Source of the DNA: Chrysophaeum taylorii | Lineage: Eukaryota > Sar > Pelagophyceae > Pelagomonadales > Pelagomonadaceae | Reading direction: 5' to 3' | Assembly (NCBI GenBank): GCA_029834535.1 | Contig: JAQMWT010000027.1 | Coordinates: 62,001-126,000, forward strand | Length of the DNA stretch: 64,000 nucleotides | In this document: positions 7,275-40,731 of the stretch, one piece after another | How the letters are laid out: each line of letters opens with the position of its first letter | Position numbering within the stretch: the stretch's first letter is position 1 | The notes under the pieces: generated by a model | The model's input: only the letters and a program-made list of their open reading frames with translations | Told to the model about the DNA's origin: nothing | The model's database searches: none | Program-made: the position numbers and the translations under genes

Positions 7275-8675
7275 TCAAAAAGTGCGCCGGCGTTTGCGGG
7301 CCTGGATCTTACGCAGGAGGCGGCGATAGGACTTAGTGAGTGCCGCGTGCTGGTCTTCCCAGCGCGCCTGGATTGCGCCAACGTCGATCTCGCGTACATA
7401 GCGTTCCCCCTCGTCGATCGCCGCGTGGACGTTCGCCCACAGACTCGGCACTGCGGCCTCGGGCTGACGCTGGTCGGCCGCCTCGGCGGGCTCCTCGGCA
7501 GGCTCCTCGGGGGGCTTGTCGTCGTCGAGTCCGGCGAAGGCGAACTTGTGCTCGATCTTGCCGCCCGACGCAGCAAACGAGAGCGAGAGGCCTCCCGCAA
7601 ACGTCTTGACCGGCGCGGCTTTGAAAACATCGCGAAGCGCAGCCCATTGGTGTCGCTGGTTGCTGGCGGGGGGCTTCTCCGCGCGCGGCTCTTCGACGGG
7701 AGGTGTCTTCTCGACGTTCAGGGGGGGGGTCCTCTCGGTTTCTAGGGAGGGCTCCTCCTCAGCTTTGTCGAGCTGTCGTAGAACGGCAAGCGACGCGTCG
7801 GCCTCGGCCTCGAGAGCGCGAGACACCTCGTCGGGACTATCGGATCTGTCGCCCGGACTGCCGACGGAGGTCTTCTCGGCTGTCGCCGTCGAAAGGCCTT
7901 CCGTGGGGGGCTCACGAGCGCGAAACTCCTCCTCGGCTTTGATGAGCTGTCGCAGAACGGCAAGCGAAGCGTCCGCCTCGGCCTCGAGAGCGCGCGACAA
8001 CTCGTCGGGTCCGTCGGATGGGTGGTCCGGGCTGTCCGCAGAGGTCTTCTCGGCTGTCTTCGAGAGGCCTTCTAACGTGGGGAGCTCATGGGGGGTAACC
8101 TCCTCCTCGGCTTTCATGAGCTGTCGTAGAACGGCAAGCGATGCATCTGCCTCGGCCTCGAGAGCGCGCGACAACTCGTCGGGTCCATCGGATGGGTCGT
8201 CCGGGCTGCCGGCGGCATCGTCGATATGTAAGCGATGTCGTAGAACGGGAAGCGACGCGTCAGTCTCGTCGGGTAGACGAGGGCGCTTGCGCGGCGGTGG
8301 CGGGATGTCTCGCAAGTCGGTCTTAGTGCCGGCGAATCGCGGCACGAAGGTCGGGGGTGGCAGCGAGGGAGGCGGAGGCGGCGGCGGCGCGGGAGCTGGC
8401 CCGGGTGACGCGACGACCTTGAGGCGTTCACGGTAGTCTGGCTTGGCCGGCTCGATCCTTAGTCGTCGGCCTTTGCGCCAGACCACGTTATCATACCGTC
8501 GACGGAAGGTTTCGGCAGCTGCTCCCGGCATTGAAACGAACCCAAACCCGCGCGATTGGCCGTCGAAAGGGCTCTTCGGGATCGACACGCTCTCGACGAG
8601 ACCGCATTTCGACGCAAGAGACAACACCTCATCCTCGGTCGTTTCGAGCGTGAGGTTGCCGAGGTGAAGCCTCAT
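7275..8675 (-). CDS. RRM-domain, NOL8-like nucleolar protein with internal acidic repeats
   Basis: 466 residues from the ATG at 8675; the open frame upstream begins only with a GTG. An N-terminal RNA-recognition motif spans about residues 1-80, with RNP2 LHLGNL and RNP1 RGFGFVSM. A proline/acidic linker follows. Then come three near-identical units of about 55 residues containing SRALEAEADASLAVLRQL and a diverged one, encoded by about 165-170-nt DNA repeats between about 7750 and 8250. The C-terminus (RWEDQHAALTKSYRRLLRKIQARKRRR) is basic and resembles the end of NOL8-type ribosome-biogenesis proteins. A nucleolar RNA-binding role is inferred. The repeated region should be prone to copy-number change. 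Confidence 0.75.
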   Translation of the reverse strand: MRLHLGNLTLETTEDEVLSLASKCGLVESVSIPKSPFDGQSRGFGFVSMPGAAAETFRRRYDNVVWRKGRRLRIEPAKPDYRERLKVVASPGPAPAPPPPPPPSLPPPTFVPRFAGTKTDLRDIPPPPRKRPRLPDETDASLPVLRHRLHIDDAAGSPDDPSDGPDELSRALEAEADASLAVLRQLMKAEEEVTPHELPTLEGLSKTAEKTSADSPDHPSDGPDELSRALEAEADASLAVLRQLIKAEEEFRAREPPTEGLSTATAEKTSVGSPGDRSDSPDEVSRALEAEADASLAVLRQLDKAEEEPSLETERTPPLNVEKTPPVEEPRAEKPPASNQRHQWAALRDVFKAAPVKTFAGGLSLSFAASGGKIEHKFAFAGLDDDKPPEEPAEEPAEAADQRQPEAAVPSLWANVHAAIDEGERYVREIDVGAIQARWEDQHAALTKSYRRLLRKIQARKRRRTF

Positions 8676-9066: not shown

Positions 9067-9071
9067 CGCCT

Positions 9072-9490
9072 TGGAGAGATTTGACCCTCTCCGGGTACGT
9101 GGTAGAGACTGCGTGCAGTCTTAGGCGTGCACAGACCATTCCGCTTGCCACATGCTACTACACAAGGTAGGGATTTAAGCCCTGACTCCTTAAGGACATT
9201 AGGTCCCATAGAAGCGCTTACACTGACAACGAGGAACGAAGCCTCTGTTACTTATAAACAGAAAACCCCGTACCTGACGGTACGCACCTGGAGGCCTACT
9301 CCATGTTGGAAAAGAGCTTCAGACTGGGTTCTTCATAGTCATGAAAAATATAATTGCGGAAGGGGAAGGAAGGGGAAGGAAGGGGAAGGAAGGGGAAGGA
9401 GGGAAAGCCGTATTACGGAGAGAAAACCCTCTTGTAGAGATAGGTGTGAAATGTTCCGGTGTCGCACACATAATAGTGTAGCTCTCTGGA
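9072..9490 (+). repeat. 5' LTR (copy A)
   Basis: 419 bp, highly similar to copies B and C. It contains two short hairpins shared by all copies: AGACTGCGTGCAGTCT and CGTACC-TGAC-GGTACG. Near 9357-9400 a GGAAGGGGAA purine tandem is expanded relative to the other copies. It ends at TCTCTGGA. Confidence 0.88.
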
Positions 9491-9543
9491 ACCTGTTGCC
9501 TACTCTACCAATTTATTCGCTACAACAAGCAAAAGCGCGTAAA

Positions 9544-9720
9544 ATGAAACTTCGCTCACTACAGTTCAGACAATGTGCTTTTAATGAACAACGCGAAGTG
9601 CTTAAACTATACTCTACCCTCATGGAACGTGCAATTTACGTCCCATGGCTTAAAACCATCTTGGAGTCAATGCATTCGCAGCTGCCTTACATGCGCAAGC
9701 ATTTCCCGCCTCCCGTATGA
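9544..9720 (+). other. Short leader ORF in frame with the methyltransferase ORF
   Basis: 58 codons from the first ATG after the LTR (start MKLRSLQFRQ) to a TGA at 9718-9720. The same frame continues directly into the methyltransferase ORF. The TGA is either a mutation in this copy or a readthrough site. No known domain is seen. Confidence 0.4.
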
Positions 9721-9738
9721 CGCAAGGTTACCATACGC

Positions 9739-12700
9739 TTGCTTCACACAGTAACTACGTCTCCCAGCTCACGAACACCTACTGTAACTCTACTTTGCTC
9801 TGGGATGTCCACTCCTGCATTCTTGGCTTGCGCTTCTAATGACTTGCAAATCAACATCAACGTTAAAGTTCTTGTTGAGAGCGACGACAATATCACGCAC
9901 ATGCTACGAAGACGTTTTGGTAATTCCATCGAAGTTTTCCCATCCCTACCTAAATTTCTGACATATCTCCATCGAGCATCGGACGCTGAACGTGCACGAT
10001 ATTACACCGATATAGTGGAATTGACATCACCATGCACAAATCGCAACATAATCAATGGGAGATCCATTTCCACCTTCGAGCGTGATATGGATGATTCCTT
10101 GTTTCCAAGTGCTTTAAGTGTACTTGAGCTTTTAAAGCCGCTCGTTCTTTTCATGGAAATGACACCACCACACTCCGCATCGTATGAAGACCATATACGA
10201 GTTGCTAATCTCATCTTCTCAACGATGCACTATACGGTGGATGTATGTGACCGAATTCCATGTTATTTGTGTGGAGATTATCAAGCCAGAGAAAGATGGA
10301 TCCTCGTTGCACGCAAATATAACACCGGCCATCTTGATCTGCTTTCCTGGCCTAACAAACGAGTCACTTCCTTTCTGGACATTGCAGACCACGCTAATTC
10401 CATCAGTCGCAAGTTAATAGTCGACGAACCTTGGACGCAAGTCTTTCCCGACATACCATTCGTGTCCACACCTAAAACCTACAACATCTTTAGTCGTACA
10501 GGATCCGTGCGCCTAACTGTGACTGAGCTTGAAACCTTAACTATGCTGTTCCTTCGTCTGCACTCTAACAAAACAGTCGAACACCCCAGTCAAGATGAAA
10601 TGGAGGGCATTTCTAACTTTCGCCTGGGATTCTTGACTAATTCAAGAAAGCCACTTGCTTGCATGAGATCCCCTATTGAACTCAAAGCTTTTGTGCTCCT
10701 CTATAATATCATGGGACGATTTTTCCCTAAATCCATCACATTACCTGTGTCCTTTCGTATTACAACTATCGAATCTAACCAACCATCTCACAGGTTATTC
10801 CTAAATAAATCCTCTACTTCATCTATCATTTACATCACTGGTGGAAGACACACAGGCGGAGACATAACAGTTTCTAACTCTTCCTCTAAACACCAGGTAC
10901 ACATAAATGCTTTTGGCGAAACCTACACCCTTTTAACACACAATACCGGAATCGACAAGACTGCTTCTCTCGAACCAGTTACCGGCTTTCTTTGGCTTTG
11001 CCAAGCATACCATCATAATAATGAAAATCAAGACACACCTCATCTAGTACAAGCACTGGCTTCCTATACCTCTCCTGTATTTCACGATTCTTTTGTCTTC
11101 TACCCTCAGGAAAATCGTCTTGAATTTATCGACAAAATATTTGCCTTAAGTGACATGCATTTGTCCCAAAGCAGATATTTGGGCTTTATAACATCAAGCG
11201 ACAGGAAGATGGGGGCCAAAGTTCACTCTATATATACTCCCACTCCTACCATTCGTGGATTTGCTAATATGCTCGTGTACGATCCACGACTCGATCGCAT
11301 CCGACACTACTCAACTCGCGAATTGGCATGCGCCAATAACTTCACAGCGTACCAAATCAATTTTCTTTTGTCTTTGTCCCCTGACCTATGCTGTGATATC
11401 ATCGCAAATGCTATTCCAGCTGGAACATATCATACAATTTATAAACACTTGTGTCAGCTTGTTTGCGACTTGCGTACATTATCTCTATCACCATCGTTTG
11501 ACCCTGATCACGCTCCTCTAACCAAAAACTATAGGTCAACCTTCTTCACAAATATATTCCCAACAGATACATCTTTAACATTACACCAGAGTTCCATTAC
11601 TATGTTCTACATTTCCAATAAAAAACTCTTATGTTGTGATACTATCACTTCTAACCACGAACTTACCTCTTTTCATACTGATTCAGTAGCTCATGCTTTC
11701 CTCTCTAACATCCTATCCGCAGATATATTATCTCCTACTAAAGAAAAACAAATACCACTTATAACGCCAAGACAGCTCCATGAGAAGCATGCGCCCTTCG
11801 ATAAGAAAGTCCATGCCAGGGGCACCCTTGCATTTCGAGATGCGCAACAGCGAGCTACTAACTTTCACAACATTCACCATTCCAGTGATTCTCAAGCCAT
11901 AAAAGCTGTTCAGGTTATTGCCAGTCCTGGACACCACCCATCTGACGTACCCTACCGTAAGTTCTGTGTGGATTGTACAATTCATAAAAAACGCTTTCCT
12001 CACCCACACCACCTTATCAAGCAACCATCATTCGAAAAAATTTTTCAACCTGGTGAAGCTTGGGCATGTGACGGTGGTTACGTCTCTGTGCTCTCGGAAT
12101 GGGGATCCTTTCGACATATTATTGTCTTCAAGTGTCTCATTTCTAAATTTCTGTTAGTGTACTTTTGTCGTAGCACTAACTCCAGCGAATTTTGTAACGC
12201 CCTTGAGTTTGTCCGCAATTTTTGCTCTACTTATGTTCATGTACAACTAAAACAAATTTATTGTGATTCCTTTAAACCCTATTTATCCCAGCATGTTACA
12301 ACCCCCTTCCGTGTGGAACACGGTATTAATATGTCCGCGTTCCCCCCTTACTTACATGTCTTTAATCATGAAGTCGAAGCCGCTGTTGGTCACATAGCCA
12401 CTGCCGCGTCTACACGACTCAGGCATATGCTTAATGTATCCTATAAAGGTCACCCCCTAATAGATCCGGCACCACACTACCCGTGGGCTGTTATACATGC
12501 TATCCAATCATATAATCTCCTCCCTAACGTTTCCCTCGAACGTATTTATAATAAAGTCCTAAGTCCCCAACAAGTTTTGTTAGACCAATGTAATGTTCCC
12601 CAACAAGACTACCTCAAACCTTTTGGTTATGTTTGTTATTTGCATTTGGGGCCTAATGAATTTCATAAATATGAACCCCGATGCCGCCCCTACATCTACC

Positions 12701-13242
12701 TATGCGGTGCTAACGTTATAAATCCTTTCATAACACCCCATGTTAATCACTTAGCCGATGTTGTCCTTAATCCTGAAAGCGGTCAAGTCCGTGTTTCCTC
12801 TAAACTGACTTTTCCCCATCTTATTTCTAAATCTCCTCCTGATTATGAACAGCATCCACCTCCCGCACCTTCACCAGACATTCCCTTCTCTGTTCACAGC
12901 ACCCCCAATGATGCGGCGCAGAGGGAGAATGCTATGCCTACCGACACTGACCATGAGAGAGGGACTCATTCTTCTCATCTCCATACTCCCTCTCCCGCTC
13001 CCGCATGTGCTCCAGCTGCTCCTGCACCCGCTACTTCCACCACCACACCGACCCCACCCTCCACTCCCTTCATATCGCTCATGGCACCCACTGGACGGCT
13101 ATACCACCAGAGGGGGAATTTACACCATCCCTTCATCACCATGTTCACCAAGCGATTTCACAGTCCTCTTCAGTTATGTGTGATAGGAGCCATAGCCACC
13201 CATCTCCTGATGCTCCTCATGTCCACTTCTACGACGACGTAA
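9739..13242 (+). CDS. Retrotransposon polyprotein: C5-cytosine DNA methyltransferase fused to Copia integrase
   Basis: 1167 codons, opening with TTG in the given frame. The N-terminal half is a DNMT. Motif I is TVTLLCSGMSTPAFLA (about residues 16-31) and motif II region is VLVESDDN. Motif IV is DIVELTSPC with catalytic Cys99. Motif VI is LKPLVLFMEMTPP with Glu140, and motif VIII is DYQARERWILVARK. Motifs IX/X are RHYSTRELACANNF and DIIANAIPAG (about 521-560). A gag-pre-integrase type H/C zinc site follows (GHHPSDVPYRKFCVDC, about 735), then the integrase core: WACDGG (Asp), QIYCDS (Asp) and NHEVEA (Glu), with 34 or 36 residues between the second Asp and Glu. Catalytic residues of both enzymes are retained. 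Motif I lies upstream of the first ATG (9805), so initiation must come from an upstream fusion or readthrough. Confidence 0.88.
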   Translation: MLHTVTTSPSSRTPTVTLLCSGMSTPAFLACASNDLQININVKVLVESDDNITHMLRRRFGNSIEVFPSLPKFLTYLHRASDAERARYYTDIVELTSPCTNRNIINGRSISTFERDMDDSLFPSALSVLELLKPLVLFMEMTPPHSASYEDHIRVANLIFSTMHYTVDVCDRIPCYLCGDYQARERWILVARKYNTGHLDLLSWPNKRVTSFLDIADHANSISRKLIVDEPWTQVFPDIPFVSTPKTYNIFSRTGSVRLTVTELETLTMLFLRLHSNKTVEHPSQDEMEGISNFRLGFLTNSRKPLACMRSPIELKAFVLLYNIMGRFFPKSITLPVSFRITTIESNQPSHRLFLNKSSTSSIIYITGGRHTGGDITVSNSSSKHQVHINAFGETYTLLTHNTGIDKTASLEPVTGFLWLCQAYHHNNENQDTPHLVQALASYTSPVFHDSFVFYPQENRLEFIDKIFALSDMHLSQSRYLGFITSSDRKMGAKVHSIYTPTPTIRGFANMLVYDPRLDRIRHYSTRELACANNFTAYQINFLLSLSPDLCCDIIANAIPAGTYHTIYKHLCQLVCDLRTLSLSPSFDPDHAPLTKNYRSTFFTNIFPTDTSLTLHQSSITMFYISNKKLLCCDTITSNHELTSFHTDSVAHAFLSNILSADILSPTKEKQIPLITPRQLHEKHAPFDKKVHARGTLAFRDAQQRATNFHNIHHSSDSQAIKAVQVIASPGHHPSDVPYRKFCVDCTIHKKRFPHPHHLIKQPSFEKIFQPGEAWACDGGYVSVLSEWGSFRHIIVFKCLISKFLLVYFCRSTNSSEFCNALEFVRNFCSTYVHVQLKQIYCDSFKPYLSQHVTTPFRVEHGINMSAFPPYLHVFNHEVEAAVGHIATAASTRLRHMLNVSYKGHPLIDPAPHYPWAVIHAIQSYNLLPNVSLERIYNKVLSPQQVLLDQCNVPQQDYLKPFGYVCYLHLGPNEFHKYEPRCRPYIYLCGANVINPFITPHVNHLADVVLNPESGQVRVSSKLTFPHLISKSPPDYEQHPPPAPSPDIPFSVHSTPNDAAQRENAMPTDTDHERGTHSSHLHTPSPAPACAPAAPAPATSTTTPTPPSTPFISLMAPTGRLYHQRGNLHHPFITMFTKRFHSPLQLCVIGAIATHLLMLLMSTSTTT

Positions 13243-13338: not shown

Positions 13339-15711
13339 TTGGTCACACCCCACTCCATTTTGGATCATAATGACGCTTCTTACGGTGCTTCCGAGCCTCA
13401 TCTCTCCGCCATCGAAGACTATATCACCGTGCAATCGCATTACATTGAAGCCCACCTTGGTGATGCTCCTCTACTCGTCGTTCAACTCATCGAAGATCCC
13501 GATCACGCTCATTTAGCAGATAATGTCGCTTCTTACGCAATTACTCATCTGACGACGAGTCATGATCCCAGCACGGTTGGTTCGGACGAATACAAGATTC
13601 AAGCCAAAGATATCAAAATTGATGAATATGAATTGAACTGCCTCAAAGGTCTCTCAGACGCTGATCGCAAAGCTTATGTTGCTGCCATCTCCAAAGAGAT
13701 TTTTGACATTGTTAAGTTTGGCTGCTTTAAACTAGCGCTGCCAATGGTGAACTCAAAGCCTATTGACACCCGTCTCGTCCTACGGATAAAAACCAACGCC
13801 GCTGGTCAGTACATTAAACATAAAGCACGCCTGGTCCTACGAGGATTCTTAGCCTCTCTGGGCACCGATTTCTTCAACATATTCAGTCCTATGGCACAGC
13901 TTACCGGCATCCGTTGTGTTTTGGCGCTAGCAGCTCACCTGCGACTTCCCGTCTACCATGTAGACGTCCCTAACGCTTTTGTTCAAGCTCCCATCGATTC
14001 TCATGTCTACTTCAAACTGCCTCAAGGCATTTACCTTCTCGATCCTGAAGATACTAAATACCAAGGAAGCCGTCTTCCAAAGCTACTTAAATCTCTCTAT
14101 GGATTGCGTCAGAGCCCTGCCCTTGGAATCAAACCATAAACGGCTTCTTTGATTCCTTAGGCTATACAAGATTTCGAACAGACACATGCATTTACGCTAA
14201 AGTCCAAGCTGACGCTACATTTCTTATTTGCACGCTCTCAGTAGACGACGTCGTCATTACTTGTACTTCGGAAACTCTACGTCGTGAGTTCCAGCACGCT
14301 CTGAAAAAGGAATACTCAGTCGACACCTTCGAGGAAGTCCATACTCTCTTAGGCATGCGCATAACGCGTACAACTGATGGCTCTATATCACTGGACTGTC
14401 AGGCTAAACTTGATGCATTGTTCGAAGAGTACCCCATTTTAATGCAGTTGCGTCCCACTTCCACACCGATGTCACCATCAACCACGTATAAAACTGGAGA
14501 GCCATCTTCTGATATGGACAAGTTCATCCTTCATACCTTCTCTACGCTACTCGGCAAGCTCACGTTTGTTCAATTGGCCTGTCGCCCTGATTTATCCCAA
14601 AGCCTTAGTCGTTGCTCTCGAGGAATGCACAATCCAGCATTTCTACATGTTCAAGTACTAACAGGAACGCTCCGCTACTTGCGCAAGCCCGAAAATCGCA
14701 ATCTTCGCCTCTGGTACTACTCTGGTTCTTCCGCTCTAATGGACCATCTTCGACTTCTTATCGGTAATCGTACTGACATGGCTACCATGTTGGACTACAC
14801 TAAAGAACAAGAGTTAATTCAGGTAATTTTGATCCACTAGTCGCATTTGTTGATGCCGATAATGCACCCTCTTATGAACAAGACCGCAAATCTACGACCG
14901 GTTACGCTATCTTTCTGTTTGGTTCTCTCATCACTTGGAAGTCCAAGTTGCAACCTATTACAGCTACTTCTACGCACGAAAGTGAACTCATAGCCCTTAA
15001 TATGTGCGCCGATGATGTGGTCTGGTTACGCAAATTGCTAACGGAAATGGCATTCGCTATAAATCCTCACTTCTATCTCCGCCAACCTTCAGGGAAAGAC
15101 TTGCTACTAGACTATGATGCTCACGACAATCCCCTCCCGTCGGACTTGTCGTTCATACGTAACAGCCCTAACTAACTAACTAACTAACTAACTTCAGACC
15201 TCTCCCGAGCATGGGAGCCAGGCCGGACCGACAGGAGCCAGTCCGGAATCACGGGCCTGTAGACGAGGGGTGCCGAAAGGCGGGTCGGCGGAGAGTGATC
15301 ATCAAGCTTGTCGCCATGCGACGAGGAGACCGCGATGTGACTGACAACCAACTCGTCGACAACCTTCCGTCTGCGCCCCCCGGCCATACCCCGTCCCACT
15401 GCGAACGTTCCGGCTGCCAACCGGCCCGCCCGAGAGGCGAATAGGTGCCAACCTACAGCCCTATACTTGGAGATTCTGCTTCTGCTATTCATCTATCTAA
15501 TAATCCCGACAGTGCGACTAAGGCTAAAGCTATCAGCACACGTTGGTTCCGTATACGCGACTACGTACAGTTAAAACGCATTCGTCTACATCATGTTTCC
15601 GGTTCCCATAATATCGCCGATGGATTTACCAAACCCTTTGGAGCTCCACTCTTCAGCAGATTCCGCACGTTACTCGGCTTACAACAACCCATGGCTAAAC
15701 AAGATGGTTAA
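13339..15711 (+). pseudogene. Copia reverse transcriptase and RNase H, frameshifted and split by a SINE
   Basis: RVT_2-type RT, continuing the integrase ORF after a frame change at about 13240-13340. The fingers region has KHKARLVLRGF. The catalytic motif is VYHVDVPNAFVQAP (Asp), followed by SLYGLRQSP. After a frame shift near 14130 the YVDD-box equivalent reads LSVDDVVIT. A second shift lies near 14830, then RNase H: FVDADNAPSYEQDRKSTTGY, ATSTHESELIAL and, beyond the insertion at 15171-15454, GDSASAIHLSNNP and HHVSGSHNIADGFTKP. Removing the insertion with one target copy restores the frame exactly. The three frame changes make this copy unlikely to express active RT. Confidence 0.85.
15171..15454 (-). 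mobile_element. SINE copy S1 with (TTAG)n tail, inserted in RNase H
   Basis: 284 bp, read on the minus strand. It starts TAGGTTGGCACC and ends with about six TTAG units. A 9-bp target duplication ACAGCCCTA flanks it (15162-15170 and 15455-15463). It is nearly identical to S2 (26446-26736) and S3 (49892-50176). The target duplication, simple-repeat 3' tail and lack of coding capacity identify a non-autonomous retroposon. No clear pol III A/B boxes were recognised, so the source RNA is unknown. Confidence 0.85.
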
Positions 15712-15968: not shown

Positions 15969-17303
15969 TTGGAAACATCAAACCTATTTGTCGGTGGCGC
16001 AAGGACATTAATCTACGCCCGTGACGCCCAAGGCGCCCAAGGCAACTGCCCAGCAACAGTCAGCAGCCCTTCCAACTTTCCTGCTTTAATGATCGACAGT
16101 ATCATGCTTTTACTTCAGTTGCCCTTTATCTCGAGTGTAAATCTTGAGATTCTTGTAGCAGCTTGGTCTTTGTTACAGTCTGTTGAAGATAAAGTATGTG
16201 TAGTGACCAATCCTCATGAGCTACTTAATATGCTTGTCGAACGCCTCGTTAACGATGTTTCCCACTAATTGGACACAATCTCTCCCGAGACGTTACCGCC
16301 AATGCTTAATTATTTTCATCAACTATCACTTGACCAGCAAGCTGCCTTTAAAAATGTGCTAATCCAGGTTAGCTACCCTTCGGACACAATTGAGGTCTTT
16401 TCAGTTGATACTTCTTCTGAAGATGCTTCACCGGCGCCGATCGATAATCCAACCGCTGAACCCACGTCAAATAAAGCTGACAACAATATGGCTGAATCTT
16501 TACACCAATTAAAAGAAGAGGTTCGGTCCTTATCCCTACGTCTCACTAATACCGAACAGCAATTGATGGCACGAGATCAACAACTATCGCTTGCACTGAC
16601 GTCTCTCACACAGATGCAAGAGACTTACGAAAACTTCAACACTCGAGTGATCGAGAACATCAAACATGCATCTCTATTAGACAACATCTTGTCAAGTCTT
16701 CAAATGCATCAGGACACCATAATCCCGTCTTCTGCTGTATTTGTCCATATCATTTCTCGGTCACTTATCTCGTCTATTGGACAGCTTCCTCCAGACACCT
16801 ATAATGAGGCACAGCGAGTTTTAATCGACGCAGCAGCTCACGACATCCACACAGCTATGTCTGATGCACATGATCGTGTTATTCCTGCATTGGATCTACA
16901 CGGTCTTACACCGGATACTGCTATGTCCTTCCTTTCTTCAGTTATATTACCCTTGGTCAACTTGAGTGATGCAATGATTACGCAACATCACAACACGCTC
17001 GACGTCGAAATTAAATTGTCCTGTTCTGTTGTTGTTTGTTCCATTGTTCACTGTTCTCATGTATATTGCACAAGTTCCGCCTCAAGAACGTCTGAAATGC
17101 ACAAACCGTTTCCACACGTTGAGGGGGTCCAGAGAGCTACACTATTATGTGTGCGACACTGGAACATTTCACACCTATCTCTACACGAGGGTTTTCTCTC
17201 CGTAATACGGCTTTCCCTCTCTCCTTCTTTCCTTACCCCTTCCGCCCCTTTTATCTCAGATTATGAAGAACCCAATCTGAAGCTCTTTTCCAACATGGAG
17301 TAG
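15969..17303 (+). CDS. Additional retrotransposon ORF, coiled-coil protein with one in-frame stop
   Basis: An open frame from ATG 15969, interrupted by one TAA at 16266-16268. It then continues to about 17040 before running into the inverted LTR, where the formal stop is at 17301-17303. The middle contains a heptad-rich stretch (about 16490-16650, with LHQLKEEVRSLSLRLT and LTSLTQMQETYENF) preceded by an acidic Ser/Asp/Pro segment. No enzyme motif is visible. Position after RNase H is unusual for Copia. It may be a structural or nucleic-acid-binding accessory protein; function unknown. Confidence 0.45.
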
Positions 17304-17525
17304 GCCTCCAGGTGCGTACCGTCGGGTACGGGGTTTTCTGTTTAATTAACAGAGACTTCGTTCCCCATTGTCAGTGAAAACGCTTCTATGGGACCTAATG
17401 TCCTTAAGGAGTTAGGGCCTAAATCCCTGCCTTGTGTAGTAGCATGTGACAAGCGGAATGGTCTGTACACGCCTAAGACTGCACGCAGTCTCTACCATGT
17501 ACCCGGAGAGGGTCAAATCTCTCCA
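17128..17525 (-). repeat. Internal inverted LTR copy (copy B)
   Basis: 398 bp, the reverse complement of LTRs A and C. It has the same TGGAGAGA and TCTCTGGA ends and both internal hairpins. Flanking bases (GGGGG to the left, CAGGT to the right) do not form a target duplication, so it is unlikely to be an independent solo-LTR insertion. Confidence 0.85.
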
Positions 17526-20044
17526 CAGGTTATTAAGTATAAACAAGGTAATCTTGACATTATCATCAATTTTACTCTGGATAGATGATTGTCCTTTAAA
17601 TTCAACACCATAAAGATGTATACCAAGTTTATCTTCTCCCCATTGAGTCATACTGATGATGTGCAGATCGGGATCGTTATGGTCGTTTTGCTTGGGTAGG
17701 AAAAGCGCAACGTCTAGCTTTGCATATCCCACATTTGGATGCTTTGGTAGAGCGGGAATGACAGTCCTTATAATCATAGCATGTGTGATACTCTGCGTAT
17801 CCGTAGCAGTCTGGATAGCAGGTGATAAGAACTCGGGTAGCTTTACGATGTGGATAGGATCAGCAACGTTTAAAGTTAATTACATGTTGAGAAGCACATG
17901 TATCAGCATATCCTGGCGTAGTCATTAGCGGCAAATTGTACTCGTTGTACAGTTCAAGCATTGTTGCATAACAGGCATGTGTTGAGCTTCGACCAAACGC
18001 GTACTGTGTCATGAAACTTTGCGTTTGTTCGGAAGGCACAACGACGAGTGTAAAACCAGTGTTTAATTTTGGTAGCAACACAGGGGGAGCTGTGCCATCT
18101 TCATTATCTTCGTTGGGTAGATTATTGGGGAGCTCAGAGTGCGAGGAAGTTTCCCGAGCTTGACGACGAACGATAGCATTCTGAGCTTTAGCATTTATGT
18201 GCTGCAATAGCGGCTGAGGGATGTTATCGATTTCATCATCTTTAATGGACAGAAAAGTGTGGAACATTTTCTCTGTGTCAGCAGTCCCCCTCTGCTCCGC
18301 ATCACTGGGGGACGCTTCAGGAGCAGATGTTTCAGTTTGATACTTTTCTTCTGAAACATGAGATTCCTTATCGGCTTCTAAGAGGTTCACAATGGTATTG
18401 GACATAGTATCAACTCGAGATAAGTAGAGATGAACTTGGGTGGCTTCGTCAGGATCTAAGGACTGTGTCGAAGCTTGAGAAGCGGTTGTCCAGAGGGTAC
18501 TCAATAAGCTTTTCATTTCCTCCTGTACCGTTTTAGAGTCGGTAGAGGGGTTGGGATTCGCTTCCTGTAATTTACCAAACAGGTGGCGAAGACGATCAAC
18601 TTGATAAGTAGCCCGGTCCATAAGAGACATATTAGAGCGTGCATTACGGTTAGAGAAGGGTGAGTAGACAGGACGATCGAAGCTGGTACCTTTGACGTTA
18701 TAATTTGAAGGTGGACGATAGTACGACGTGTCACGAGGTAAAATTGTCGATGCTTTATCTTTTGCATTACGAAGCTTACGAGCGTTGAAGCCAGACTGTC
18801 CAGCTACAGTAGCTAATAACGAGTAAGCATTGTTTAGAGAATCGTGGGATTGATGAATAGTATCCATCAATAACACCTTAGGTGGCTTGGTAGCGGTAGT
18901 ACCAGGGATGTAAGGGATCCAGGAAGCGGGTTTATCCAAGCGTCGGTTAGAGGAAAACTTTGTTTCATTGTATATTTTTAACAAGAACTCCAATAACGGA
19001 CGAACGTCATTAGGATCAACTAGCTTCAACAATTCAGGATCGTGAATCGAGTTGTTCCCAGAGCGTGTCTCGTATAGTTTACACCATTCCAATAAAGATT
19101 GAGAATAGCGCTCGTGATCCGAGGGATTAGCATATAGACGGTAGATCTCCTCGTGAGCTTTAAGAGTTATTATGGAATCATTAAACTGGATTGATGCTTC
19201 ATCATTATTTAATTGCTTTGCCTGAGATTGGAAAGCAAGGAGTTGTTCGACAAATACATGGGCATACCAATTAACATTTAAAGACATTCGATTAAACTGA
19301 GATTTAAGTTCAGTGACATCTGTACAAGACACTGTCTCATAGTAATGGTAAGCTAAAAGCATTACTGCACGTAGTTTATTTGGATGTGCAGTAAGTGCGC
19401 ATATCTTCTTTAATTGAGGCCACATAGCGAGTGCGGGCTTGTCTTGTGATTCCAGATTTTAAAATGTGTACAAGAAACCAGCATAAGTTTCGCAGTGTTT
19501 GATCCAGTCGGTATTAGAGAGACCTGTAAAGGATATGTTAGTTAGAGATGAATCATACACAATTAATTTAGGGAATCGGGTATCTAATAGATTGAGGACA
19601 CGTTTAACATCCTCATTTAATTCGGGACGAACGAGATTGTATGACTCTTGGTAATAAAGTCGTTCGAGATTATTGCGGACGTCAACTGTTAGTTGATGTG
19701 ATGAGTTGACGTGCCAAGTTTTAAGATGATCAGGCAAGGCAACTTCATCAGGTAAGTTTAAATCGATTACTTGTTCAGCTTTCCATTGAGCGAAGATGAT
19801 AAATATAAACTTCTAGTTCAAGAAGCTGGTTATACTCCGGAGCATTCCGGGTGTAAGCTTCATATGAATTGAAACAGAATAACGCGCCCACGTATGGACT
19901 TGTCATATGCCTGCGAAGCGCCTCAATTTGCAAGCTCACCTTGGTTGAGTTGTCTTGGAAACGCAATCCTGCGTTAATTTTATCAACGAGGATTTGTTCT
20001 TGTTTGTAGATATCCGTAGTGGACATTGGTTTATATTTTGACAT
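17526..20044 (-). pseudogene. Minus-strand Gag-protease module of the same element family
   Basis: Read leftward from ATG 20044 (MSKYKPMSTTDIYKQEQ). The first frame ends at 19775. A shifted frame continues (19737 onward), is broken by one TAA near 19459-19461, and then runs as a 521-codon ORF (19425-17860). The long helical polar region resembles Copia Gag. Near the end is TPGYADTCASQHVINF, which fits the Copia aspartic-protease active-site pattern D-[ST]-G-A-[ST]-x-H but with Cys in place of the usual Gly. A 1-base shift then gives about 110 further open codons up to the inverted LTR. No Cys-His zinc knuckle was seen. These breaks mean the copy is probably defective. Confidence 0.65.
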
Positions 20045-20529
20045 GGTTGTGACCTATTAAAGAATAGGTTATAGGATTGATAGACATATTCGACACAAAA
20101 GAATGAAGGGTTTCTCGAGTGCGGGTTATATGTACAGTACGCTATTTTAAGCGTGGGCTTATTTACAAGACCAAACAAATCAACATGCTATTTAAAAACA
20201 GGATGACTTGAGACTGAGCAATGGATTAATTCTCGAGTAGTCAGTCTTTTGTTGGGGAATAGGAGGAAAAACCCGTACAAGTTTCCGCGGCTAGTGTAGG
20301 AAAAAATTTAATTTTATTGGCTATGCGAGTGCATATGACCAGTGACCGACCCAACTCGGCCACAAACCAAATTAACTGGTGGGCACATACCGTCACACAA
20401 CAAATATGTACAGTAGACCACCGCCAAACACATTGTCGCATTGTACTCGTGATCAGGCGTATATTGATCACTCCATTTATACGTACAACACAGTTGGGCT
20501 GACACACCTACGCATCTGGGCCCATAACC
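20045..20529. other. Untranslated region between LTR C and the Gag start (minus strand)
   Basis: About 485 bases lie between the plus-oriented LTR C and the minus-strand Gag ATG. The region would serve as the 5' leader of a minus-strand transcript if one exists. No convincing primer-binding site was recognised. Confidence 0.4.
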
Positions 20530-20933
20530 TGGAGAGATTTGACCCTCTCCGGGTACATGGTAGAGACTGCGTGCAGTCTTAGGCGTGTACAGACCATTCC
20601 GCTTGCCACATGCTACTACACAAGGTAGGGATTTAAGCCCTAACTCCTTAAAGACATTAGGTCCCATAGAAGCGTTTACACTGACAACGAGGAACGAAGC
20701 CTCTGTTAATTAAACAGAAAGCCCCGTACCTGACGGTACGCACCTGGTGGCCTACTCCATGTTGGAAAAGAGCTTCAGACTGGGTTCTTCATACATTGTA
20801 GTCATGAAAAGTATAATTGCGGAAGGGGAAGGAAGGGTAAGGAGGGAAAGCCGTATTATGGAGAGAAAACCCTCTTGTAGAGATAGGTGTGAAATGTTCC
20901 AGTGTCGCACACATAATACTGTAGCTCTCTGGA
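20530..20933 (+). repeat. 3' LTR (copy C)
   Basis: 404 bp in the same orientation as copy A. The CGCCT target copy follows at 20934-20938. It differs from A mainly by point changes and fewer GGAAGGGGAA units. Confidence 0.88.
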
Positions 20934-21845
20934 CGCCTGCTTCAATCTTCCAGGGATCTACTGCGACTCCTCGCGCCGAGGTCAATGTCGAAACCACACC
21001 GTACTATCTTAACTCGGGTGCCGGTCCGCTACGAGTCCTTGCGCCGAGGTCGACGCAAACACCCCTCAACGAAGTTTTGGGACGGTGGCCTAAGCACGTG
21101 CCCTTAAGAGAGATGTGTAGGTTGATTTATTTTTAACACCGTCGGTCCGTGGGCGGATTCAAGTATGACGTCAAAAGTCCTCGACGGTTAAAAACCCCGT
21201 TTTGAGGCAAAACTTATTCAGCATCATAAGCTCCAAAAGCCAGAATGGACAAGCGCAGAGAGTAACAAAGAAAGAACGCAACGGGGGACGGCAGAAGTAG
21301 GAAGGGAGCTCGGCAAAATGGAGAAGTAGGAGCATGATAGCGAAGAAAGGTACAAGAAGGGGTGACGTAAGAGGAGTTCAAAGGAAAAGGAAAGATGCAT
21401 AGAGAGTAGCGGCAGGCGTGACTATGAAGAAAGACACGAGAAGATGACGCTAGGAGACGGTCGCAGCATGATGCCAGACATCCCAAACAGGCCGCCGTAA
21501 TTGTGGTCTGGGCAAGGCGACCAAATGTCGCGAGAACACAAGGTAAACATACGTCATAAACATCAACAGCACAAGCAACAATGAGGTCAATGAGCTCCGC
21601 CGGCAAACTACCGCGAGCGAAGTATTTTGGTGCGGGTGTGCCTAGAATTTGACACGCGGCGAGTGGAGTCCGCTGAGTGCTCCGGCGAATCGGTTGAACA
21701 TGGGACTTTGGACCGTGTCGCACCCTTGAAGTTACAAACGGAGGGACATTTCTTGCACCAACGCTGCCTTTCGATGCGATCCAGCGCCTCAAAGCGCAAA
21801 GTCGTGCCGGTGCGATACGGAGGCGACAACAACGTACGTGCATGA
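20934..21845. other. Non-coding/relic region right of the retrotransposon
   Basis: No intact gene. On the minus strand at about 21608-21925 a frame contains WCKKCPSVC and later SPEHSADSTRRVSNSRHTRTKIL. This resembles the Cys-Cys-His-Arg-His tail of LINE reverse transcriptases, but weakly. Confidence 0.35.
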
Positions 21846-26290: not shown

Positions 26291-27794
26291 TCGTCGTATC
26301 CCTCAGCATAAGGATTCATGGTATCACTTGTGGTAAAAAATCAATTGGGATTTGAGTCGGGGGCCTGGGAAACCGCGACTCAGACTTTCGTACCGACACC
26401 TTTACCCTGATCGCCAACCATCATGAGCCTTTCGCGATCCCGGCGTAGGTTGACGCCTGTTCGCCTCCCGAGCGGGCCGGTTGGCAGCCGGAACATTCGT
26501 AGTGGGACGGGGTATGGCCGGGGGTGCAGACGGAAAACATTATCGACGAGTTGGTTGTCAGTCACATCGCGGTCTCCTCGTCGCATGGCGACAAGCCTGA
26601 TGATCACTCTCCGCCTACCCACCTTTCGGCGCCCCCCGTTTACAAACCCGTGATTCCGGACTGGCTCCTGTCGGTCCGGCCGGCTCCCATGCACGGGAGA
26701 GGTCTGCAGTTAGTTGGTTAGTTAGTTAGTTAGTTACCCTCACACATCAAAGGACGGACCGCGGACGGGCCCAAATTGCGCCGTCCATAAGCTTCGCATG
26801 ACCGCGACGGCGCCCGCCAGCCTGGTTCCAGTTCCAGGAGGACGTGAGTCGCCGCGCTACTTTTTACCGAGGCGGCGGGGCTGAGGTCGGATGCCGTTGC
26901 CGCCGCGGCGGCGAAGATTTGTGAACGAAAGAATGCGACGACGACGACGGCGACGACGCTGAAGATGTGGTAGGCTCCAAGCTCGGAGAAGTCCATGTGT
27001 GAAGCGATGGAATATCAGGCGAGGGCAAAACACGCGTTCGGGGAGGAACAAGCTCTGGAGATCATGCTTTGGCCTTTGGACGCACGACGGCGTAGGGCGC
27101 TTGGAGTCAATCAAAAATGCCGCGCCAATGGATCGTGAGAAGTTGATTATTGAAGCGCGCGTTGTCGGCTGATTTTTTTTCATGCACGTTGCCGATACGA
27201 GGTCGCGTCGCATGGCAGGTGCGAAGCGCTAGTGTCCTTTGTACTCGTCATGGGCAGGTGATACGCCCAGGAGTCATCACTCTAGGGTGGCGGCTGTGTC
27301 GCAGCGCGTTTCGTCGAGAAGGTTGTATTCGTTCAAGATCAAATCCATTTGTGCCAGTGGCGCTTCCTCGTGGACGGACGGACGGACGGACGGACGGACT
27401 GACTTTGGGGAGACGAGCTGCGCATGTTTTCTTCATACCCTTCTTACAAGAAGGCCCTTCGCAGGTCTTACTAGATTGCACCTCTTTTATGATCGCCTCG
27501 CCAGCTCAGTCAATGAGCTTACAAACCTTATCAAAAGAAAAGACGTTTCGAAAATGCGGTTCATGCATGCATGCATGCATGATTGCATGCGGCACACCAG
27601 ATGAGACGCAGCAGCGATGTGGCGATATCAATCGGTGCTATTTGTACCGAAGAGACCGAAAAGTGTCGTCGTCGTCTTTGTCGTCTTTGTCGTCTTTGTC
27701 GAATCGCAACGTCAATAAAAAAGACCGCATCATCGAAGAAGAGATCACAAATTCCCCTCCGTCCTTTCTCCAAAGGCAAGAAGGTGGAGGGATT
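26291..27794. other. Intergenic region containing SINE S2 and microsatellites
   Basis: Apart from the SINE, it holds (ACGG)n at about 27371-27400, (GCAT)n at about 27560-27590 and (TCGTCTTTG)n at about 27664-27698. A minus-strand 88-codon ORF (26996-26730, start MDFSELGAYHIFSVVAVVVV) has one hydrophobic segment but no recognised homology. Confidence 0.5.
26446..26736 (+). mobile_element. SINE copy S2
   Basis: About 290 bp in plus orientation. It starts TAGGTTGACGCC, perhaps a few bases earlier with CCCGGCG as in S3. It ends in (TTAG)n at about 26708-26736. The body is closely similar to S1. No clean target duplication was seen. Confidence 0.8.
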
Positions 27795-36865: not shown

Positions 36866-38119
36866 TCACCGTGCCGACGAGGGGAGTAAGTCTTTGAAAA
36901 AGGTGACAACAGGCTCGAAAATGCCAAACGGCTCCTTGTTACCGCCCGGAAACTTATCTTCCGGATCTTCTTCCTTGACGCCGAGCTGTTCGACGGCCGA
37001 GAGGGCGGCCTGAGCGTCAGCCTGGCAGCAGGCCTTGGAGACGGAGGCCGCGGCCGCGACGAGCGCGCCGATGGCGGGGAAGACCGCCGAGGCGGCGGGC
37101 TGGAGTTCGACGATGATCGCTGCGAACGCCGCGCAGAGGCCGCCGAGGGCCGAGGTGAAGGGGAGGACGGCGCCGACGCGCGCGGCTTGGTTGGCGTAGG
37201 TGTCGGCGACGGCGGCGGTGCGCTCTTTCATCGCGACCACGGCGGTCGCGCGCGCGATGGCGGCTTCGGCGGTGACGAGGTAGTAGGCGGCCTGAACGGC
37301 GGCGATAGCGGTCGCGATGATAGCCTTAAACCCAAAGCCGCCCTTGACGAGGAGGGCACACACGGGTGGCGGGATGGCAACCCAGGCGAACGACTCCCAG
37401 CGCGCGCGTTCGCGTTGCTTCTTGGTTGCGACCATCTCTCTCTGGCTCGACCACTCGCGGCCAACGGGAGCAGTCGTCTTCCCGATGGTGCACGCCGCGT
37501 CGGACCAGGCGACCGTCTCGCACTCGGAGAGGGCGGCGGTGATCGAGGCGTACATGGCCGTCAGCGGACAAATGAGCAGGAGCTCGTACTTGAAGGGCGC
37601 GAGGTCGGGGAAGCCCCTTATGAGCCCGGGCATGACGAGCGCGAGGACAGCCGCCGACGCCGACAGTCCTACGTTGAAGTGAAGCGGTGTCTTCGAGCGC
37701 TCGGCAGCCGCCAGCAGCGACTCGGCCTCGGCCGCCGCCTTGAGCGACAAAGACGAAACCTCCTTGCCGCTGGCGGTCGCGACGCGACCAGCGTACTCGG
37801 CGGCGACGCCGATGGCCGCGACCAGGAGTGCGCAAGCCGGAATCACGACCTCCACGACCTTCTCGGTGAACGCGACCGGCGAGGCGGCGGCGATCGCGAC
37901 CGACGACACCAACGCCAACCCCTCGGCCGGCCCCAGCCGCGGCAGCCGACGCCCGGCCTGTACGTCCAGCTGCTCGAGGTCTTCGCGCAACTTCTGCAAC
38001 GCTTGCACGACGGGCTGTTCCTGGGTTGGCCGCGCGAGCGGCGCGGCGAGGAAGGGTCCCAGGGTACGCAGAGCGATAAACGGCCCCGCAGTGCGCAGCG
38101 CCGGCACGATGAGGTGCAT
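36866..38119 (-). CDS. Conserved multi-pass membrane protein, paralogue 1
   Basis: 417 residues from the Met at 38119. That start is chosen because both paralogues begin MHLIVPALRTAGPFIALRT there; the frame upstream is open but unrelated. The N-terminus is hydrophobic and basic, compatible with an organelle presequence. About six hydrophobic segments alternate with Ala-rich amphipathic helices. A KEVSSLSLKAAAEAESLLAAAERSK helix and a conserved patch EKVVEVVIPACALLVAAIGVAAEYAGRVATASGK are shared with the gene at 40732-42066. I recognise no characterised family. A plastid or other organelle membrane is plausible. The two copies are a local duplication about 2.6 kb apart. Confidence 0.7.
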   Translation of the reverse strand: MHLIVPALRTAGPFIALRTLGPFLAAPLARPTQEQPVVQALQKLREDLEQLDVQAGRRLPRLGPAEGLALVSSVAIAAASPVAFTEKVVEVVIPACALLVAAIGVAAEYAGRVATASGKEVSSLSLKAAAEAESLLAAAERSKTPLHFNVGLSASAAVLALVMPGLIRGFPDLAPFKYELLLICPLTAMYASITAALSECETVAWSDAACTIGKTTAPVGREWSSQREMVATKKQRERARWESFAWVAIPPPVCALLVKGGFGFKAIIATAIAAVQAAYYLVTAEAAIARATAVVAMKERTAAVADTYANQAARVGAVLPFTSALGGLCAAFAAIIVELQPAASAVFPAIGALVAAAASVSKACCQADAQAALSAVEQLGVKEEDPEDKFPGGNKEPFGIFEPVVTFFKDLLPSSAR

Positions 38120-40731
38120 GTCTAGGATCGCGACCTGCAGGACGTCACGGTTTCTCTTGGACGACTTTCTGGGGTTCACTTCAACTCTCTCTCTCACTCG
38201 GGTTCTTTCCCGGGGGGGGGTGGAGGATTACGAGATGGCGGCGGTCTTCCGGCCCTCTCGACTCCGCTCAGAAGGGGGTAACTCGAACTCCAACTGCCTT
38301 CTCCTCTGCTCCATGCTGTGCTCACATTCGAACCGAACGACCGCCACGTGTTCATCTCGCTTCTCGTTGACAGGGTGGCACACTGCGGATCGATTTAGTG
38401 TGCTTCCGAAGTGCGCTTCCGGGGTATGCTTACGGGCGACGCTGACGCAGTCAAGGTAACCAAGGATGCAGCAGCAAAGCTCACCCAAAATCATTGGCGG
38501 CAGGTGCCAACATTGAACGTGCTTCACACCCCAAGCACAATACAAATCGCCGCCGCGTAGTTTGCGTATGCCGGAAAAAATCATCATGGTGTCCCGGGCA
38601 TCAGCACCATCGGAATATTGTACGTAGGTGCCCAAACACGAAGAGCTTTTTGGTTCCTTGTCTGTCGAAGATAGGGGGTCATCCGACCACCCAGACTTTG
38701 GTCAGGAGAAGAAACGCAGGATTGGCGAAAACGAACGCAATGATCATGGAGCTAAAGTTACGTCACATTGCGCGGGCTGAGATAAATGCCGTCTGGAACA
38801 ACGCAAACGGCGAAGACATCGCCATATCGCCCCACGCCACTCACATCTGACTTTCTATTGAACGTGACAGCGGCGACGTGGCCGCCCTTCTTAGGAACAT
38901 CGAGCATCTCCGGCTCCGTGGCTCCCACTACAGACGGCATCAAATGCGCTTGTTCGTCTTGAGTGTCGCAGATCGGGTCGACGCAACCACCGACATTCAT
39001 TTTTTTTCGCGTCGCGAGCCAACTTGCATTGTATTAGAAGTGTAGTTTGGGCCTCAATACGACACGACCACCATGGCGGTAGCCACCGAGTCACTGACCT
39101 GATAATGCGGCCTACACAGAGTGAAACAAGACCCCGTGACATGGCAACAATCTTTTGTTGTCCAATTGGACCGTAGCATCCAATAAATAATGCCACCTCG
39201 GAAGCTCCAGCGCCGTATGGCCAAAGATGTTCCTTCCACAATCTGGCCGAGGATATTAAGTACTCTGGATTCCCGGACCTTGGCGTCATCGGCCCCTTTC
39301 GTCATTATTCGAAGCGGCGATAACGAGGAAGAGCACAGTGGAGTAGATCTCAACCACTATCGAGACGTGGTTCTACGTCCTCTTTCTTAAATCCTTCTTA
39401 ATGTTATACGATAGGGTCACGCATGCGGGCGAGCTCCTAGCGAGCGTGCACAGCAAAAGTAAGACGCAGAAGGAACAGATTGAGAAAAGCAGACTATTAA
39501 AAAGCCCACTCGAGACGATGCAGGCTCGACTCTCGAGGGAACCAGCTCGAACCCGCGAGGGCAAACCCGATACAACGACTCCTAGTTGCCGCCGTATTAC
39601 ATGCTTTTCTCGCCGCAGATCCTCGCAGAACTCACCATCGTGCTAGGCGTGTTTGGGTCCTATTTTGGCCCGTGGTGTGAATCGGATCACCTTAGCCTAG
39701 GGGCGGTACTCGGCGACACTCTGGATTGGATCCACTGTCCCATCACTGCGCAGCAACCACCCTAACCTTCGGGCGTGTCAGCCATTCTACATCGGTGGGG
39801 ATTTGCACAGCGAAACAAAGCACCAGCTTCTCTTCTCAGCATAGCTCATCTTTCTCTTAAACGTCGTCGTCACAATTTTGCCGGGCAAGATCATCGGCCT
39901 CATCGACTGGATGATGGAACGCACGACTCCTTCGAGAGTCCTATCCTTCGAGAGTCCTATCCTTGAAAAGCCTCATGATCCCCGTTCCTTGACACACCCT
40001 GGAGATGTAGCATCATTTGTGAAAGCATTGTTACCAGAGACTCCTTCCACGCTACAGTCAGACCACAATCCCTGTGATTGCTACATCCAATTTTTGCCTT
40101 ATCTTCATTACATCTCGATGTGGATCTAGTCCTCCTCACGCAGGCAACGGAAGCACTTGGCACACGGAACGATATATCGTGGGCGCCTGGAGCACGCGAA
40201 GCTCAAGGCCGAGCCAAATCCGAACCCGAAGTAGAAAGATATTTGCAGCTCAAATCCGACACTCACCGCTGAAAACGACGGCGACAGACGTCAACCAAGT
40301 GCCGCTTGCGATCCAATGGTCGTTTCAAGTTTATGAGCGACAGACGTACGTATGCCAATGATGGCCCTAATATAAGATAATTATAGGCGCAAACAACTCC
40401 TGGGCTCATGCGGCACTCAGTCGCCGGTGTCGTTGCGCTCATGGCATGGCAAACTTCCGCAAGCGGCGGCGGCGGTTCGAGGCGGGTATAACGCGCCCAC
40501 CCCCAGCGGCGCGTCAATGGCGCTCAACCGGAATGGGCCGCGACAACGCCGCTGCCACCGAAGGGGGGAGGAGGAGGCGGCGGATTAGCGGACTGCGGCG
40601 GCGATGCGAGGAGGTGGAGGGGCAGGTCCATAAGAAACGCGCATATGGATCAGCGGCCGTATGGGGTCTTTTTTGGCATGCGGGTGGACATGTCCGTCGG
40701 ACGACTTGAGAGGCATGTATGATGGTGCATA
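38120..40731. other. Gene-poor spacer between paralogues, with a probable DMT relic
   Basis: About 2.6 kb. Beyond the DMT relic at its left part, no coding region is convincing. A 17-bp tandem (TCCTTCGAGAGTCCTAT) occurs at about 39925-39965. Confidence 0.5.
38380..38860 (-). pseudogene. Relic of a DMT transporter
   Basis: Minus-strand fragments resemble the two intact transporters of this window. WGDMAMSSPFALFQTAFISARAM (about 38835-38765) aligns with YGDAMAITTSLTMALFLTSARAA of the 54-kb copy. SMIIAFVFANPAFLLLTKVWVVG follows, and PPMILGELCCCILGYLDCVSVA (about 38500-38430) recalls the last helix. Stops and frame changes separate them. Confidence 0.4.

Follow-up and report, generated by a model that had tools for sequence, protein, structure and literature searches.

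Organization of the Copia element in the window

The window analysed here, a 64,000-nucleotide stretch of the genome of the alga Chrysophaeum taylorii, contains a Copia retrotransposon copy whose parts occur in the order LTR-a (minus strand), Pol (plus), LTR-b (plus), Gag–protease (minus) and LTR-c (minus) (Table 1). The Copia arrangement was recognized from reverse transcriptase (RT) of the RVT_2 type, found with Pfam at E 1.4e-23 and 2.8e-11 in two frames downstream of the stop-free frame 9721–13239, with upstream integrase matches that lie below the Pfam cut-off (rve at residues 776–872, E 0.0083; SH3_retrovirus at residues 960–994, E 0.00068). Further Copia hallmarks are LTRs of 398–419 bp, GGTTATGGGCCCAG after the LTR, TTGAGGGGG before the LTR and a CGCCT target-site duplication. 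The primer-binding-site-like stretch GGTTATGGGCCCAGATGCG adjoins LTR-c; it would pair with the anticodon arm of initiator tRNA-Met, from which copia takes its half-tRNA primer. Approximately 570 N-terminal residues of the frame 9721–13239 carry C5-methyltransferase (DNMT) motifs in canonical order, with the integrase C-terminal to them. The putative RNase H-like part was labelled by eye, and a Pfam search of it gave no family. It is followed by a third open reading frame, ORF3, in which a coiled-coil-like stretch was noted by eye and no Pfam family was found above the cut-off.

Table 1. Features of the Copia copy in the window (positions are those of the window)
Feature	Position	Strand	Evidence
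Outer target-site duplication CGCCT, left	9067..9071	.	sequence
LTR-a (TCCAGAGAGC...AATCTCTCCA), 419 bp	9072..9490	-	matches 5' LTRs of e331, e39, e242, e317
ACCTG 5-bp duplication, joint of LTR-a start and Pol half	9491..9495	+	
In-frame TGA between end of Gag–protease frame (..FPPPV) and DNMT; proposed readthrough site	9718..9720	+	
Stop-free frame, DNMT–integrase	9721..13239	+	1173 aa
C5-cytosine methyltransferase domain, motifs I–X	9787..11430	+	hhalign, Ka/Ks
Motif I LLCSGMSTP	9790..9816	+	
Motif IV Cys	10033..10035	+	
Motif VI Glu	10156..10158	+	
Motif VIII DYQARERW	10276..10299	+	
Motif IX RHYSTREL	11302..11325	+	
Motif X IIANAIPAG	11398..11424	+	
Copia integrase core and SH3-like tail	11998..12702	+	Pfam; start from PHPHHLIK..EAWACDGG stretch
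Copia RT (RVT_2), spread over two frames	13747..14432	+	Pfam
RNase H-like part	14804..15172	+	reading frame
Dispersed repeat, ~280 bp, inserted in element	15174..15455	.	absent there in e317, e242
ORF3, third ORF of element	16269..17300	+	counterpart in e317, e242
Polypurine-tract-like stretch (..TTGAGGGGG) ahead of LTR-b	17113..17127	+	
LTR-b, 398 bp	17128..17525	+	
CAGGT, inverted second copy of internal 5-bp duplication	17526..17530	+	
Gag and protease-like half (..YADTCASQH.., by eye), inverted relative to Pol half	17526..20529	-	
LTR-c, 404 bp	20530..20933	-	
Outer target-site duplication CGCCT, right	20934..20938	.	sequence

LTR-a matches both LTR-b and LTR-c, with identities of 96.7% (a–c), 92.0% (a–b) and 93.3% (b–c), and the Gag–protease half is collinear with the 5' half of four other copies (e331, e317, e39 and e242). 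The sequence ACCTG, a single stretch of the Gag-Pol region in normal copies, is doubled in the window copy, with the second occurrence (as CAGGT) at the joint between the end of LTR-b and the Gag–protease half. When an LTR retrotransposon integrates into itself (autointegration), an inverted internal segment becomes joined to LTR ends and 5 bp are duplicated, and the doubled ACCTG, the inverted Pol half and the CGCCT flanks are the signature expected of such self-integration. Unlike autointegration products, the window copy lies between two more like-oriented LTRs and an outer duplication; a circle entering a resident LTR, or a further round, would add these outer LTRs. Self-integration in one step was rejected as the full account because LTR-b is too divergent from the other two; the LTR identities are inconsistent with one event and make subsequent recombination between LTRs likely. 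Nested insertions, considered as a source of the three LTR stretches, were ruled out by the joints with their 5-bp duplications. The sequence of the inner joint is unique in the host genome at up to 2 mismatches; for the LTR end sequence, a search allowing up to 1 mismatch gave 561 occurrences. Approximately 235 bp found in four other copies are absent from the window copy at 13049. Rearranged in this way, with the Pol and Gag–protease halves in opposite orientations, the window copy is probably not functional as a unit, and it is therefore taken as a witness of its family and not as a working element.

The dispersed repeat of ~280–290 bp is present three times in the window (15174–15455, 49880–50170 and 26433–26681) at 90–95% identity, and where it has entered the element it shares 13 bp with the uninterrupted site of two other copies, suggesting that a SINE- or MITE-like element inserted here with a long target duplication. 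Elsewhere in the window, a 138-nt stretch occurs three times at a spacing of 174 bp (7728–8213) within an open minus-strand frame whose start resembles an RNA-recognition-motif protein by eye, a block is duplicated ~3.9 kb apart at 77–89% identity (36947–42066), and 43500–43727 is a perfect 114-bp tandem duplication.

Layout of other copies and an in-frame TGA before the DNMT

C331, C317, C242 and C39 (copies e331, e317, e242 and e39) are collinear in the order LTR–Gag–protease–TGA–DNMT–integrase, with an insertion inside Gag–protease in C242. Only e317 has both LTRs in view; it measures ~12.2 kb overall, its LTRs are 92.4% alike, and no clear 5-bp duplication was seen at its ends. The normal layout of the family would be LTR, primer-binding site, Gag, protease, TGA, DNMT, integrase, RT, RNase H, ORF3 and LTR.

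A TGA separates the protease frame from the DNMT in 29 of 30 loci of family A, to which the window copy belongs and whose count includes it; the remaining locus is shifted by an indel. The stop context in this family is mostly TGA-CGC. Family C, a sister family, was examined with the pattern ACGCAGCCATTAA-N(4-6)-CTACT, in which CTACT is fixed and the stop is free. This gave 109 occurrences, and among the 100 matches listed TGA precedes CTACT in 98 (the exceptions read TTA and GGA), with the two bases ahead of TGA being variable. The divergent copy L061 likewise reads TGA-CTA. UGA-CUA is a well-known leaky stop context, and the stop contexts of families A and C would both be leaky. Between the TGA and motif I, no in-frame ATG is present in the family A loci printed, except for L013, which has an indel; from this we infer readthrough, to which the conserved TGA before the DNMT in families A and C also points. 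A non-ATG start for the DNMT–Pol product is a possible alternative. Folding of the RNA downstream of the window's TGA gave nothing special (z -0.44).

A divergent C5-methyltransferase domain

All six motifs named in the original prediction (I, IV, VI, VIII, IX and X) were found in the one stop-free frame in the order claimed, and the run into Copia integrase that it described is indeed unbroken, the sub-cut-off rve and SH3-like matches lying in the same frame. The description of the DNMT as complete stands for the set of motifs and has to be qualified for their detail: in motif I, where LLCSGMST stands opposite DLCAGVGG of reference enzymes, the second Gly of the FxGxG cofactor loop is missing, and the stretch between motifs VIII and IX reaches ~330 aa in family A (302 aa in family B), which is long for the C5-DNMT family.

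A search with PF00145, for which the original prediction had named the lack of a significant match as grounds for its own rejection, did not significantly match the window DNMT. The best result was E 0.12 and 12.2 bits (cut-off 22) for the first 238 residues; a 181-aa piece gave only E 0.29, the full 648-aa DNMT piece gave no match, and neither did the entire frame 9721–13239, even at E up to 1. The family C DNMT was also short of significance (E 0.21), and that of a third family, B, clears the cut-off (E 1.1e-9, 38.6 bits). The domain of families A and C was missed in Pfam, NCBIfam and PDB by single-sequence as well as profile searches, and the models that AlphaFold produced without an alignment were unusable (pLDDT 36.8 for the 648-aa piece and 38.7 for the 212-aa N part).

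As PF00145 alone did not certify the window DNMT, profiles were compared using hhalign. The query consisted of 10 rows from families A and C (11 in alignment A2, from which the short L057 row was dropped), and the 14 reference DNMTs comprised 1 from a phage, 9 from plasmid records, 2 from viral contigs, and the host DNMT2 and DNMT5. The N half, with motifs I–VIII, matched the references at P 3.4e-5 (score 39.7, with 200 column-shuffled references at or below 24.1), and the C half, with motifs IX–X, at P 9e-5 (score 36.6, with 200 column-shuffled references at or below 20.0). In the profile–profile alignment, Cys105, Glu146 and QARER are in register with PCQ, ENV and QRRER of the references. 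The placement of the catalytic Cys and Glu on motifs IV and VI, the other point on which the original prediction could have fallen, therefore holds, with 0 of 200 shuffles reaching the score of either half. Judged from profile similarity, the window domain is a divergent C5-cytosine DNMT by descent.

Selection on the DNMT

A total of 37 family A loci were checked, and the 27 in which the DNMT is open over nearly its full length were used for Ka/Ks. Ks exceeded 0.05 in 339 of the 351 pairs, and for these the median Ka/Ks of the DNMT was 0.104, in a sample of picked open copies whose pairs are non-independent and whose Ks is near saturation for deep pairs. Constraint is tightest in the catalytic N part (0.059 over the first 200 residues, 325 pairs), followed by the middle (0.094) and the C part (0.171). 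The motif IV Cys is present in 27 of the 27 open copies, the motif VI Glu in 26 and each of the two QARER arginines in 26; Cys and Glu are likewise kept in family C and in six family B rows. The DNMT is under strong purifying selection, and because Cys and Glu are kept in this way at such a median Ka/Ks, its motifs go beyond chance.

Relative to the divergent copy L048, Ka was 0.160–0.194 for the DNMT and 0.101–0.135 for the integrase part (six family A targets each), and 0.066–0.111 for RT (five family A targets); between L048 and family C the corresponding values were 0.632, 0.482 and 0.359. The DNMT therefore evolves faster than integrase and RT, being somewhat less constrained and of the same order.

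DNMT-bearing families and methyltransferases of the host

The genome searched was the window's own (70.8 Mb, 697 contigs). The window DNMT has 73 match places in family A, some of which are fragments of one copy, and full-length matches share 72–100% identity with it. Family C has at least 150 match places, its DNMT being 46–54% identical to that of family A. A search of the genome with PF00145 gave at least 57 matches, counted exon by exon among the best 123 of 474 candidates scored: one DNMT2 (L001), one DNMT5 (L002) and 55 others. The six of these 55 that were read (L003–L008) all belong to family B and contain TLPCQ and VEN; a protease-like motif is legible upstream of the DNMT in L006–L008, and in this family the protease motif and DNMT are able to share one frame. 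With three family B queries, 79, 130 and 135 match places were obtained, counting fragments, and 53 of the 55 remaining PF00145 matches overlap these; another, on C589, adjoins a family B match place by a 7-base overlap. One match (G000:C216:62478-62798, E 1.3e-6) overlaps no listed family B match and may be an exon of a host DNMT or part of another element. At L049 (G000:C572:176500-179900), another coding stretch, and not the end of a protease frame, precedes the DNMT, with no intervening stop.

The host DNMT5 matches PDB chain 7r76 at 3e-143; this chain was deposited as Rad8 and is, as we take it, the Cryptococcus DNMT5. The host DNMT2 matches the DNMT2 structure 1g55 at 3.9e-39. Both are C5-methyltransferases encoded in the same genome as the element DNMTs. 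Of the 57 PF00145 matches (exon-wise, best 123 of 474 candidates), 56 could be assigned, and none was recognized as DNMT1 or DNMT3. The DNMT1 RFD domain had no match in the host, nor in any of 14 control genomes, which makes this negative uninformative. The genome also gave 84 matches to light-harvesting proteins; for the one that was compared, the best four PDB chains are LHCI chains of entry 9vfj, and several of the many chains ranked below them are named as fucoxanthin chlorophyll a/c proteins, as would be expected of a chlorophyll a/c alga. A query with the host DNMT2 returned no confirmed relative from the genome contig collection (44 pattern matches).

A test for CpG decay in the DNMT of the 27 open copies showed no excess of CpG transitions and no sign of methylation. 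C/T differences affect 0.271 of conserved CG sites compared with 0.210–0.283 before other bases, and G/A differences after C stand at 0.143 compared with 0.071–0.151 in other contexts. The CpG observed/expected ratio is 0.88 in the element and 1.29–1.31 in two stretches of host sequence from the window, a difference that base composition may explain.

Relatives of the element and capture of the DNMT

Searches of a 5.8-billion protein collection found no relative at E 0.001 of the family A DNMT (best 7989 candidates by shared words scored) or of the family B DNMT (best 7997 scored likewise). An integrase–RT query from family C retrieved 96 Copia proteins, the best being P0001, a metagenomic protein of 1583 aa from ENA, whose N terminus is a DNMT tail (P 1.7e-6) and whose integrase was called by eye, with no Pfam match. 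When both halves of the DNMT were tested against the 96 proteins, the tail was found in P0001 alone (P 1.9e-7, with the runner-up at 0.0034). A search of the viral contig collection with P0001 gave no confirmed relative (4 pattern matches). P0001 also carries a PTM/DIR17-like Tudor domain between integrase and RT (E 1.8e-8), a second chromatin-type domain besides the DNMT tail.

An RT tree was constructed from 34 rows, 30 from the 96 Copia proteins and four from host elements. Families A, B and C and P0001 form one group with support of 100/99 and in 100% of 200 bootstrap trees, within which B and P0001 are joined at 93/62. The tree overall leaves 15 of its 31 inner branches open, and its six long rows all lie outside this group. 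The nearest row outside, P0008, has no DNMT tail (P 0.038).

The simplest account is that the DNMT was probably captured once, long ago, before A, B, C and P0001 split. That the families instead gained their DNMTs separately is unlikely, although significant similarity between the A and B DNMTs is seen neither for the whole profiles (E 0.27) nor for the N halves (score 14.6, below a null maximum of 20.6), and the layouts differ in that the B protease motif and DNMT can share one frame. Against the references, the N half of family B is the stronger part (6.6e-11), its C part alone giving P 0.024 only. The C parts of A and B are alike, however (P 3.7e-5, score 35.0, with 0 of 60 shuffles above 18.2), the DNMT occupies the same slot between protease and integrase in both families, the motif VIII–IX gaps are of similar length, and RT places the families in a single group. 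Shared ancestry of the A and B DNMTs is thus suggested by the C-part match, the common slot and the RT tree. The host of P0001 is probably other than this alga; if so, either the capture is old or the lineage has moved between hosts.

Proposed role of the element DNMT

Our preferred reading, to which we assign a probability of roughly 0.7, is that a DNMT captured once and kept by selection resides in a readthrough Copia Pol and acts on cDNA or insertion DNA, leaving marks that DNMT5 keeps. The capture would have occurred in the ancestor of the Copia clade that holds A, B, C and metagenomic P0001, and purifying selection would then have retained the domain. In families A and C the DNMT would be the first domain of the Pol product made by readthrough of the TGA, and as part of Pol it would be packaged together with integrase and RT. 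The protein is most likely an active C5 methyltransferase whose substrate would be the cDNA of the element or the DNA around a new insertion. Marks so placed could afterwards be maintained by the host DNMT5.

Other readings of the domain were weighed against this one. Motifs that match by chance in a retroelement spacer, with no DNMT present, would account for the single-sequence database searches returning nothing significant, yet two independent profile matches, neither equalled in 200 shuffles, and the strong purifying selection leave this very improbable. A domain that derives from a DNMT and is no enzyme, serving as a nucleic-acid-binding or structural part of Pol, would agree with the strong divergence that hides it from Pfam and PDB searches, with the lost motif I glycine and with the long VIII–IX insert. 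This we consider improbable, since constraint is strongest in the catalytic N part and, beyond the near-invariant Cys, Glu and QARER arginines of the open copies, Cys and Glu persist across the distance to family C and in all six rows of family B. We are equally doubtful that the enzyme methylates RNA rather than DNA, as a DNMT2 does, with the genomic RNA, the tRNA primer or another tRNA as substrate. The genome with which the DNMT travels is RNA and is primed at a tRNA-like site, the element showed no CpG decay, and the published SymbioLINE DNMT failed to methylate DNA in yeast, but the DNMTs of DIRS elements carry out de novo CG methylation, both as reported in excerpts of PMC5890265.

A more far-reaching version of the preferred reading concerns the host. 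In an alga with only a maintenance DNMT5 and a tRNA-type DNMT2, hundreds of Copia copies, encoding the enzyme behind a leaky stop, could supply the de novo marks on their own insertions that the host then maintains; we regard this as a speculative idea with little likelihood. With DNMT5 present and no DNMT1 or DNMT3 recognized in the host, a mobile element as the de novo methylase of a genome nonetheless becomes a testable question. Retroelements that bear the class of enzyme by which they are silenced are a paradox, and a DNMT kept by a Copia lineage through deep divergence would be worth what it costs the element. With three families in a single genome and one metagenomic element, this lineage provides a system for asking why it is kept.

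Comparison with known DNMT-bearing retroelements

The original prediction of an algal Copia polyprotein with a DNMT N-terminal to integrase is supported by the layout, the hhalign comparison and the RT tree, and its suggestion of a possibly independent case is strengthened by the class of element involved. De Mendoza 2018 (PMC5890265) reports that LINE, DIRS and Gypsy elements carry DNMTs and demonstrates CG methylation by the DIRS enzymes; Copia is a different class from those named in the excerpts of that account, so that a separate capture is likely. Among the literature found by title or abstract opening, in a limited search, no further Copia–DNMT case is described, and excerpts of Hoguin 2023 (PMC9998398) describe no DNMT-bearing Copia. 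A single sentence in Sarre 2025 (PMC12344493) mentions LTR Copia and DIRS elements with an embedded DNMT3, citing streptophytes and dinoflagellates; the structure of the Copia-DNMT3 is not given in that passage, and the 2018 account (PMC5890265), in its excerpts, names Gypsy and not Copia.

Closest in organization is KnitGypsy-Dnmt3 of Klebsormidium nitens (PMC5890265), which is likewise an LTR element with an intronless C5-DNMT in Pol under purifying selection; it is, as described there, a Gypsy element with a Dnmt3, whereas the element reported here is a Copia (RVT_2) with the DNMT in the protease–integrase slot behind an in-frame TGA. SymbioDIRS-Dnmt3 and SymbioLINE-Dnmt of Symbiodinium share with it the many retroelement copies that carry a DNMT (PMC5890265). 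The enzyme of SymbioDIRS-Dnmt3 lies within Pol and methylates CG de novo, but SymbioDIRS has a tyrosine recombinase and a dinoflagellate host, whereas the present element is a Copia in another alga, and the SymbioLINE DNMT is encoded in an ORF upstream of RT, whereas here it lies inside a Copia polyprotein (comparisons from excerpts of PMC5890265).
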